From contig OZ024930.1 of the NCBI GenBank assembly GCA_964017235.1, positions 30,322,614 through 30,386,613 on the forward strand: 64,000 bases of DNA, in the 5' to 3' direction. Under the pieces are notes generated by a model that was given only the letters and a program-made list of their open reading frames with translations, was not told the DNA's origin and did no database searches. This DNA comes from Sabellastarte sp. h YS-2021 (taxonomy: Eukaryota; Annelida; Polychaeta; Sabellida; Sabellidae). Shown here piece after piece: positions 7,396 to 58,680 of the stretch (positions within the stretch are counted from its first letter, which is position 1; every line of letters begins with the position of its first letter). A program made the translations under genes and the position numbers.

Positions 7396-9497
7396 AACTA
7401 GATATTTCGTCTCGACGCAGTGTATCCCCGGACGGGACATGGTTGAAGCGTGACATACAGAGTATTATGTTTGACACAAATATACCCCTGTGGGGAGGGG
7501 GCCTAAGTGTTTATGGGAGCAACTTGAAATGACACCAAGTAAACAAAATGTTTGCTTAATGAAAGATACAAATGTAACTAGACGTAGCGCATCGGAGAAC
7601 CGATGCAAATTGTATCCACCAGAAAGAAAACTCACCAAAGCCAATCAACCATCACTTAACCTTAAAGGAGGAGCTCAAGGTAAAATTTGACCACATCAAA
7701 AGATTCTTATAGCCCATGATTTCCAATAGGTTGGCGTGACATTGCAAACCTCTAGGAACACGAATAAGGGAGTTATAAGCACTTTTAATTTTGGCTATCC
7801 TCATTTGACCTTGAAAGAGGGGCCAAAGGTCAAATCTGATCACATCAAAAGATTCCTAGCGCTAGATTTCCTATAGGATGGTTTACCATCCCAAACCTCA
7901 AGGACCTATAATAAGCGAGTTATAAGCACTTTTAAGTTTGGCTATCCTCGTTTGACCTTCCAGGAGAGGTCCAAGATCAAATGTGACCACACCAAAAGAT
8001 TCCCAGCCCATGATTTGCTATAGGTTGGTTTATCATCCCAAAACCTCTATGACCAATAATAAGTGAGTTATAAGCACATTTAAGTTTAGCTATCCTCATT
8101 TGACCTTGAAGGAGGGGTCCAAGGTCAATCTGACCACAAAAGGACTTGGTATAACTGTACTTTTTGTAATTGTACGATTGTTGTCCGATTGTGAATAAAA
8201 TATGTTTAAATAAATCTGACCACATCAGAAGATTCGCAGCACATGATTTCCTATAGGTTGGTTTCACATTGCAAACCTCTACGACCAATAATAAGGGAGA
8301 TACTTTTAAAGTCCGCTATGTGGGGTACTTTGGCACTCCGTGGATGACCTTGAATTAAGAGCTTCAAGGTTAAATGTCTACAAGGTTGTAGAGGACATGT
8401 ATATCTGTTATACATATCACCTATGAAGAGATTCAACCTTCTACCTATGAGAAACAGCCAGTAGAAAAATGTAGATAATTTTCAAAGAAATGCCCGTGGC
8501 AGCCATCTTGTTTTCAGAATGAGGCTAATTTCAGTCCCAGAGAAGCTTACCCCCCAATGAAGATATCTTGCAAATTTGATGAACCTAGCCGGTGTAGTTT
8601 TCCTCTGAGAGCATTAATGCCGAAAATCTCTCCACGCGCGGTGGCGGCGTAGCAAACACTAAAGCAAAGTATCCGGTGGATACAATAATCAACATGAGCC
8701 AGTAAGTTATACAGCCAATAATAAAGGAGGTATATGGCCTCACAGTCTTATATAGGCATGTATATGCAGTAAAAGGTATCATTTCGAGTCATTTTAGCAG
8801 GCCTAAGGTGACCTTGAAAACAACAGCCAAGGTCAACAAACTGGATGCTGGTACTCCATCATGTACTCAACCTCCAAAGCCATTACACACAGTCTTATAT
8901 AGACATATATATGCAGTAAAAGCTATCATTTTGAGTCATTTTAGCAGGCCTAAGGTGACCTTGAAAACAATAGCCAAGGTCAACAAACTGGATGCTGGTA
9001 CTCCATAATGTACTCAACCTCCAAAGCCATTTTCAATAGTTTCCATGCAATATAGTCAGCATTAAGTGTGAAAATATCTCCAAAAAGACCAAAAATGGCC
9101 TCGATGAGGTACTTTGGCAGTCTGTGGATGACCTTCAATGAAGAGCTTCAAGGTCAAATTTCTGCATGCTTACAGAGGACATATATATGTATTATATATA
9201 CCAGCCATAGGATGATCTAACTCTCTGTATATGAGAACTGGGCCAAAATGTGAAAAAATGGCCAAAATCTGACCTTTAGGAGACCACCAGTGACCTTGAA
9301 ATTGAAGGTCAAGGTAAAAAAAATAGCATCCGTGGTATTGCCCATATATACCCACATACCAAATTTGAAAGGTCTAACTAAAATATTTTTTAAGTTATCG
9401 CGTCCGAAAGGAAATCTCTGCGGCGGTGGCGTGACCGTACTTAATCCACATAATCTACTTACTAAGTATCCACAACTTTCGTCCGGGGATACAATAA
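7396..9497 (-). mobile_element. element B1, Helentron-like, split by A1
   Basis: The left end starts AACTAGATATTT, then hairpin CGTC-TC-GACG (7408-7417), then TGTATCCCCGGACG at 7421-7434. The exact inverse, CGTCCGGGGATACA, lies at 9480-9493. Read on the minus strand this is: 5' motif, body, inverse motif, hairpin, CTAG then TT, which is the layout described for Helentron-derived non-autonomous elements. The body contains two 147-base repeat units (CACAGTCTTATATA at 8741 and again at 8888) and text in TGACCTTGAA. Element A1 sits inside it. No protein is encoded. Confidence 0.75.
7576..8688 (-). mobile_element. element A1, Helentron-like with 147-base array
   Basis: It starts AACTAGACGTAGC, then hairpin GCATCGG-AGAA-CCGATGC (7589-7606), then ATTGTATCCACC (7609-7620). 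The inverse GGTGGATACAAT is at 8675-8686. The core has about four diverged copies of a unit containing TTGACCTTGAAGGAGGGG, AGATTC(C/G)CAGCCCATGATT and AATAATAAGCGAGTTATAAG. It is nested in B1. The tail has a CGCGGTGGCGGCGTAGCA segment shared with A2 and A5. Confidence 0.78.
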
Positions 9498-9579
9498 TGA
9501 TGGAAAACGAATGAATTCAAGATCTCTCATATTTAAACCTGTCTTATTTGAGAATGTCACATGTCATACCAAGACTTAC

Positions 9580-57900: not shown

Positions 57901-58680
57901 GTCGAAATCGCTCTATCTAGCAGGGTTTTCGAGATATAAGCATTTTTATGTTTTGCAATTTTTGCGAAAAATTCGAAAATTCAAAATGGCCGCCATTTTT
58001 GGCGAGACAAAAATTTTTTGAAAATTGGGAAAAGTACTCCAGAGAGATATCCTGCGGGTCAAAAATTTTGTCGAAATTGCTCTATCTAGCACGGTTTTTG
58101 AGATATAAGCATTTTTGTGTGTTGCAATTTTTGCGAAAATTTCGAAAATTCAAAATGGCCGCCATTTTGGGCGAGACAAAAATTTTTTGAAAATTGGGAA
58201 AACTACTCCGCAGAGATACCCTACGGGTCAAAAATTTCGTCGAAATCGCTCTATCTAGCACGGTTTTCGAGATATAAGCATTTTTGTGTTTTCCTTATTT
58301 GGAAAATTCGTAATGATTAATTAATCATTAATTACTCGGCCATTTCTTGACCAATCAATGCCAAAATCTAATGATTTCCAGATTTTAATAGAATGAATGT
58401 ATTTGCCAAGTTTCAGGTGAATTGATAAAATTCCTTTCAAGTTATCATCCGGACAAGCTTCCCCATCGAAAAAAGACATTTTTGGTCATGTGACCTCTCT
58501 GATTGGTTGAAATGTCACTGCAGCATATTCAAAAAAATTCCCCAAGGCTACTGCCTAAACCTGCCAAATTTGAAAAGAATCCGCCTAATGGTTACAGAGT
58601 TATAAGGAAAACAAAATGCGGAGCCGGCGGAGCCAGAAGCTCTCCCATACACAAACAAGCGTCCCTTGCGGGACGCTTAA
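54970..58680 (-). mobile_element. composite element C3 (C with inserted D array), looks whole
   Basis: The head AACTAGAGGATCGCTCGC precedes hairpin GTTTTTGC-ATA-GCAAAAAC (55004-55022) and AAGCGTCCCG (55024-55033). About two C units come next, then D (55386-57348), then about five to six C units of about 169 bases, then the tail with TAATGATTAATTAATCATTA (58311-58330). It ends with the strong hairpin AAGCGTCCC-TTGC-GGGACGCTT (58657-58678). Both ends are intact; no protein is encoded. Confidence 0.8.
55386..57348. repeat. D satellite array inside C3
   Basis: The head (AAGACCACTGCCG, TATCTCCCGCC) and about 14 monomers of about 133 bases match the array in C2, with identical junctions to C on both sides. 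The central monomers are almost identical to each other, suggesting recent array homogenisation. Confidence 0.87.

Follow-up and report, generated by a model that had tools for sequence, protein, structure and literature searches.

The window, meaning the whole 64-kb stretch of DNA analysed here, contains at least six families of satellite-bearing, gene-less elements (A, B, C, E, F and G), for all of which the minus strand gives the 5' to 3' direction. Each family carries a terminal motif of its own, here called the address; individual elements are named HINE after the class to which they are assigned below, and a slash marks the edge of an element. HINE-G (3606..4512, minus strand) lies beyond the coordinates considered in an earlier, sequence-only reading of this DNA. 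It starts with TT/AGGCAGGTTGCG, an inverted copy of the address and a GTCY-type microsatellite, continues as a 168-bp satellite array, and ends with CGCAACCCGCCT, a hairpin and CTCTTG/TTTT; this copy has one mismatch in the 5' address (AGGCAGG for AGGCGGG). HINE-B (7398..9495, minus strand; address TGTATCCCCGGACG, a weak hairpin, CTAG/TT) encloses HINE-A (7578..8686, minus strand; address ATTGTATCCACC, hairpin GCATCGG-TTCT-CCGATGC, CTAG/TT), which bears a 147-bp satellite, and a second 147-bp satellite lies within B at 8741-9031. Family A is represented on the same strand by a further 3' end at 12708..12749 (95% over 42 nt) and by a second copy at 49080..50389 with a clear 5' end (50371-50391) and a degraded 3' end (17 nt).

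The remaining elements also lie on the minus strand. HINE-C (51091..52644) has the address TTTATCTCCCGC, the hairpin ACCGC-GGTA-GTGGT and the terminus CTTG/TT. HINE-E (54972..58678; address AAGCGTCCCG) begins with TT/AAGCGTCCCGCAAGGGACGCTT, contains 133- and 169-bp satellites and ends with CGGGACGCTT, a hairpin and CTAG/TT. A second E copy at 28474..31809 has the same two satellites, with a C-type 3' end inside it at 28886-28916, and is an exception to the uniform plan in that no recognisable AAGCGTCCCG 5' end was found. A degraded E copy (16606..18875) contains foreign sequence in its interior (from 17862 to about 18430) and retains part of its 5' end at 18852-18875. HINE-F1 (19627..22643) has a doubled 5' address GTCAGCTGAC, 155-bp and 147-bp satellites, the hairpin AGTGCCCGTTCATGGGCACT and the terminus CTCTTG/TTT, and HINE-F2 (37057..40595) has a single 5' address with the same two satellites and terminus. 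In a third F copy (34290..36659) a partial 3' end (34290-34321) and a 155-bp satellite array were recognised, and the 5' end was not found.

Several other features share the window. Open frames at 17815-18429 and 59532-63224 resemble, by eye, pieces of reverse-transcriptase elements, and 11958-12600 matches at 67-71% a 4,055-bp B-like element that was found in a copy of an autonomous element described below. At 43480-43660 the plus strand carries a hairpin, GGCTCG-CCTC-CGAGCC, and then CTCTTG/TTT (43599), perhaps a HINE 3' end lacking a recognised address. Exons resembling calcium/calmodulin-dependent kinase type 1 (CaMK1) lie on the minus strand within 44824-47193, one at 47056-47193 and another, placed by eye, at about 44830-44900.

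The families follow one terminal plan. At the 5' end, in A, B, C, E and G as read by eye on the minus strand, TT/A opens an address of 10-14 nt that is followed by its inverted copy. The 5' motif is one arm of a hairpin that pairs with its own inverse, a point absent from the sequence-only reading. At the 3' end the satellite body leads to the inverted address, a hairpin, CTAG or CTTG, and then T's. The address directly follows the T's at the 5' end and lies 18-52 nt from the 3' end, with the hairpin in between. The sequence-only reading had claimed such a shared end grammar for A, B, C, E and F, and their ends do read as it described; the five motifs that it expected to recur at the opposite ends all occur in the window as inverted pairs, the F address being self-palindromic and mostly doubled at the 5' end. 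The AA of the AACTAG or AACAAG starts that it quoted corresponds to TT on the target side and is not clearly the element's own.

Within this plan the families vary in detail. The subterminal inverted repeats (subTIRs) measure 12 bp in A, 14 in B, 12 in C, 12 in G (one mismatch in the window copy), 10 in E and 10 in F, those of E and F falling slightly below the range of about 11-15 bp given for HINEs and Helentrons. Two 3' dialects are present, CTAG in A, B, E and the B-like insertion treated below versus CTTG in C, F and G, with the terminal CTCTTG/TT common to F and G. The first letter after TT is A in A, B and F, E starts with AAGC and G with AGG, and there is no 5' TC. Hairpins are strong in A and F, moderate in E, C and G, and marginal in B (-0.5 kcal/mol, 3-bp stem). 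In the window these families have 13 recognisable 3' ends, three of them partial, and all 13 lie on the minus strand.

When the window was scanned blind under strict criteria (a 10-nt exact address pair, a stem of at least 6 and CTWGTT), three ends came up, those of A, E and F1. In 150 dinucleotide shuffles the average was 0.78 and the highest count 4, so that this count alone is within chance; with a 5' inverted copy as an added requirement the number stayed at three, and the shuffles gave 0.07 on average and never more than 2. The strict scan did not pick up B, C, F2 or G. The decisive evidence that the shared ends are real comes from the genome as a whole (1,785,957,881 bases, 647 contigs). 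Patterns of the 3' ends of A, C, E, F and G, the families covered by these counts, matched 4,109, 2,902, 6,992, 8,377 and 1,461 sites, respectively, compared with 0, 4, 0, 0 and 0 for the reversed patterns, which bears out the shared grammar well beyond the window.

Individual copies agree at the 5' side. Among eight F copies compared (two from the window and six genomic), the 5' end TTAT/GTCAGCTGAC, or TTATGTCA/GTCAGCTGAC in F2, was found in seven, and that of the eighth lies beyond its stretch; the 3' ends of these copies were picked by pattern, and their informative part is confined to the unrelated flanks beyond them. Four E copies (that of the window and those at loci L059, L063 and L072) share the start ATT/AAGCGTCCC.

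The 12-nt address of C precedes several different hairpins, and their pairing is kept by compensation. In one hairpin class, all eight variants have a 5-bp stem with 100% of cells paired and one pair changed on both sides, a covariation score that was reached by 35 of 500 shuffles. In the other, all nine variants have a 4-bp stem, again with 100% of cells paired; none of 500 shuffles reached the score, and the three both-side pair changes all occur in a single variant (GACC/GGTC for GCAT/ATGC). A corresponding claim for the A hairpin was dropped, as the A 3' ends listed mix compensated and unpaired variants, and the unpaired positions indicate that the A stem is not strictly kept. Separately, C ends were seen head to tail, both at a spacing of about 3.05 kb and as nine copies within 23 kb, as were E ends at a spacing of about 7.6-7.7 kb (runs of C or E ends on contig C1 at 16988580-16997727, 41361681-41384362 and 2390595-2413711). 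These runs are no more than suggestive of rolling-circle activity and may be either tandem rolling-circle products or segmental duplications.

A Pfam search of the genome gave 24 Rep matches, and the motif GSPHxH, rather than GLPHxH, is present in eight of the 24 loci, those in which the motif is readable. As far as the account of Thomas et al. (2014) was available, GSPHxH is the form of the Rep motif in Helentrons (PMC4067079). One of these elements, Helentron-G, has a single stop-to-stop frame of 2,245 aa with Helitron_like_N, DUF6570 and PIF1 domains, the Rep motif GSPHLH, and a weak Exo_endo_phos match (24.2 bits, just below the cut-off of 24.5). Three copies are 98.6-99.1% identical over aligned stretches and share the end CTCTTG/T. 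In seven copies found by protein and not by end pattern (the three original copies and four from a helicase search), the same 36-nt 3' end is present in all seven, followed by T in 7/7 and by TT in 6/7. The 5' start is TTTTT/AGGCGGGTTGCG with an inverted copy, and in both copies whose 5' side was read, two such starts stand in tandem with a satellite array after each, resembling the tandem, 3'-truncated Helitrons described in the portion available of PMC8268682.

The terminal 160 bp of the window G element are 99.4% identical to those of Helentron-G and its satellite is 85-97% identical, from which it follows that the cargo HINE-G and the helper Helentron-G share address, end and satellite. 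Judged by these matches, Helentron-G is probably the autonomous element that moves HINE-G, and the window copy looks like the outer Helentron-G start and its array joined to the last 160 bp.

Two exact empty sites, which concern a B-like element and Helentron-G, reveal how such elements insert. In the first, the 4,055-bp element with B-like ends (of the type TTAT/ATATCCCCAGACG...CTAG/TT) breaks the Rep frame of a Helentron-G copy; an intact Helentron-G copy reads TTTATTTTGG, compared with TTTATT...TTTTGG at the occupied site, a gain of two T's. In the second, a Helentron-G copy reduced by deletion to some 3.35 kb, read except for 1,062 bases, lies inside an E satellite array, where the E monomer CCAATTTTTCTCAAATA contrasts with the occupied CCAATTTTT...TTCTCAAATA, again a gain of two T's. 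At both sites insertion was thus into a T-run, as the sequence-only reading had anticipated, with two T's gained on balance and nothing longer duplicated; this gain could reflect a 2-bp TT duplication as well as T's owned by the element. In the window, paralogous empty sites were found for G at 2816..2956 (plus strand) and for F1 at 24214..24335 (minus strand). The match to the joined flanks spans the junction in both cases, at 80% over 150 bp for G (80-bp flanks) and at 77% over 122 bp for F1.

In combination, the subTIRs, the 5' inverted copy, the 3' hairpin, CTWG, T-run insertion and a partner with Rep, PIF1 and endonuclease-like domains uphold the Helentron-derived interpretation of the sequence-only reading, and the window elements are almost certainly Helentron-associated non-autonomous elements (HINEs) of at least six families with one grammar and an address for each. 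In the mechanism proposed, a Helentron Rep (HUH nuclease and PIF1 helicase) would recognise the 5' address and nick the flanking T-run, and rolling-circle synthesis would then displace a single strand until halted at the 3' end by the inverted address together with the hairpin and CTWG. Pasting of this strand into a further T-run would duplicate T's at most, and the satellites between the ends would be carried along as passengers.

The sequence-only reading had further proposed a single helper enzyme for all families, in which case the Rep would read the common plan of T-run, hairpin and CTWG, and the family motifs would be irrelevant or broadly tolerated. The plan is indeed common to all six families, F and G end in the identical letters CTCTTG/TT, no lineage but Helentron-G has many near-identical copies among the 62 of 567 candidates scored in the helicase search, and the strand coherence across family lines reported below fits shared machinery. 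However, the linked Helentron-G bears the G address only, no Helentron end read bears any of the others, and the G cargo shares 160 terminal bp with its helper rather than the plan alone. In addition, both ends of each family retain that family's address, which calls for an explanation if the address goes unread, and the ends fall into the two dialects CTAG and CTTG. A single helper is therefore unlikely.

The search for a Rep/helicase gene bounded by the same end code thus succeeded for G and not for A, B, C, E or F. Among the Helentron ends and downstream stretches read, no autonomous Helentron with one of these five addresses was seen, and scans of the Rep loci and downstream stretches for the five motifs gave nothing convincing. 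De novo end-pair scans of the Helentron loci H09, H21 and H22 likewise gave nothing convincing, while the same scan recovers Helentron-G, and no window address forms the own end in eight downstream stretches of other lineages; the E ends in L059 and L063 are part of separate E elements. Since 62 of 567 candidates were scored, this absence of other helpers is weak evidence. Families are distinguished by subTIRs with fewer than 11 identical bp, according to the part of PMC4067079 available, and the A and B addresses have nine bases in common. A separate helper for each of A, B, C, E and F is the favoured reading, with recognition presumably specific to the address, and most likely each address has, or had, a Helentron of its own.

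Derivation from canonical Helitrons is very improbable. CTAG (a form of CTRR) after an end hairpin in A, B and E, with the A hairpin about 10 nt before the end, speaks for it, and a rolling-circle Rep/helicase and a 3' hairpin are common to both groups (PMC4067079, in the portion available). In contrast to canonical Helitrons as characterised there, the elements lack a 5' TC, possess subTIRs at both ends and insert into T-runs instead of between A and T; C, F and G end in CTTG, and the eight Rep loci of 24 with a readable motif have GSPHxH, not GLPHxH. An identity as MITEs, or as TIR elements of another sort with cut-and-paste transposition, is more improbable still. In its favour, the inverted address resembles a short TIR, and pearl and DINE-1 elements were once classed as TIR/MITE-type in older literature (PMC7492417 and PMC4067079, as far as available), but the ends are asymmetric, with the address at the 5' T's and 18-52 nt off the 3' end with a hairpin between, only T's were gained at the two exact empty sites, and a Rep/PIF1 gene rather than a DDE transposase lies between G-type ends.

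As HINEs, the window elements belong to a kind already known, and what is new is one helper link, that of Helentron-G with HINE-G. The HINEs and autonomous Helentrons of mite, Drosophila and other organisms, in the available text of Thomas et al. (2014; PMC4067079), similarly have subTIRs that lie 2-4 nt inside the 5' end but deeper inside the 3' end, a 3' palindrome and tandem repeats, T-rich insertion without clear target duplication, a Rep/helicase/endonuclease partner sharing the ends, and GSPHxH. Differing from that text are the presence of six addresses in 64 kb, satellite arrays within the autonomous element itself, the doubled 5' starts of Helentron-G and the cross-family strand coherence. 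Cg_HINE of the Pacific oyster (Vojvoda Zeljko et al., 2020; PMC7492417, as far as available) has the same succession of 5' subTIR, inverted repeat, GTCY/GTCC microsatellite, satellite array, 3' subTIR and palindrome, as well as a TT preference and the occurrence of one satellite in different elements. None of the 10 autonomous oyster elements could be related to Cg_HINEs in that account, whereas here one HINE is matched. The match between this satellite-bearing HINE and its autonomous Helentron covers the end as well as the satellite, a connection missing from the oyster study.

The bodies of the elements had been taken as unrelated, which is half right. A 147-bp satellite is common to A and F, and the composite of A within B recurs at locus L008 with an edge that coincides with the CTAG end of B, indicating that A can travel as a passenger in B. 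Additionally, a second young Helentron lineage, H10/H16 (C1:175.36 Mb, loci L010, L041 and L056; C2:115.88 Mb, loci L016 and L055), is 98.8-99.0% identical in the longest blocks and 97-98.5% in others. Downstream of its gene lie the 133-bp E satellite and the 155-bp F satellite, both reversed relative to E and F, and further downstream H16 has a B-like 5' start on the opposite strand. The ends of H10/H16 are not fixed, the common 5' edge being without TT/address. The autonomous Helentron-G itself carries the satellite of its cargo, which offers a direct route for satellite spread.

The most interesting lead, new and unexplained, is that copies of different families share strand when they lie within about 100 kb of each other. 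On contig C1, the 3' ends listed first for A, C, E, F and G comprise 456 copies, and among these matches the cross-family pairs on the same strand number 15 of 16 at 0-5 kb, 70/79 at 5-20 kb, 108/143 at 20-50 kb, 175/265 at 50-100 kb, 220/396 at 100-200 kb and 364/771 at 200-400 kb, these pair counts being inflated by tandem C copies. When strand labels were shifted along each family 2,000 times, agreement averaged 0.50, and the observed value was reached by no shift at 5-20 or 20-100 kb, by 74 at 100-200 kb and by 1,791 at 200-400 kb; in this sample of listed C1 matches, coherence fades by about 200 kb. It is uneven by family pair among the same matches (F-C 73/83, F-E 77/105, E-A 27/47, E-G 15/26). 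Nested or duplicated blocks are partly excluded as its cause, as coherence is still seen at 20-100 kb, and consecutive neighbours of different families at distances of 5-100 kb agree in 148 of 191 cases among the C1 matches listed. The CaMK1-like gene lies on the same strand as the window elements, which is one data point.

In bacteria, IS200/IS605 elements transpose as single strands ('peel and paste') and their orientation follows replication direction, according to the available part of PMC5371812; the likeness is one of analogy only, as these elements are prokaryotic and use a different enzyme, TnpA. By this analogy, the local direction of a DNA-opening process, either replication or transcription, may, quite tentatively, set the polarity of Helentron-type insertion, such that unrelated families inserted at different times come to share a strand over domains of about 100 kb. 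Among the papers listed for Helitron orientation, titles and abstract openings mention no such effect, which is far from proof of novelty. If genome-wide, the coherence would connect the insertion of rolling-circle elements in animals with the direction of replication or transcription, and sequence alone would then suffice to test the insertion mechanism. If the proposal is true, the strand of fossil elements would be a genome-wide record of the direction of germ-line forks or of transcription.
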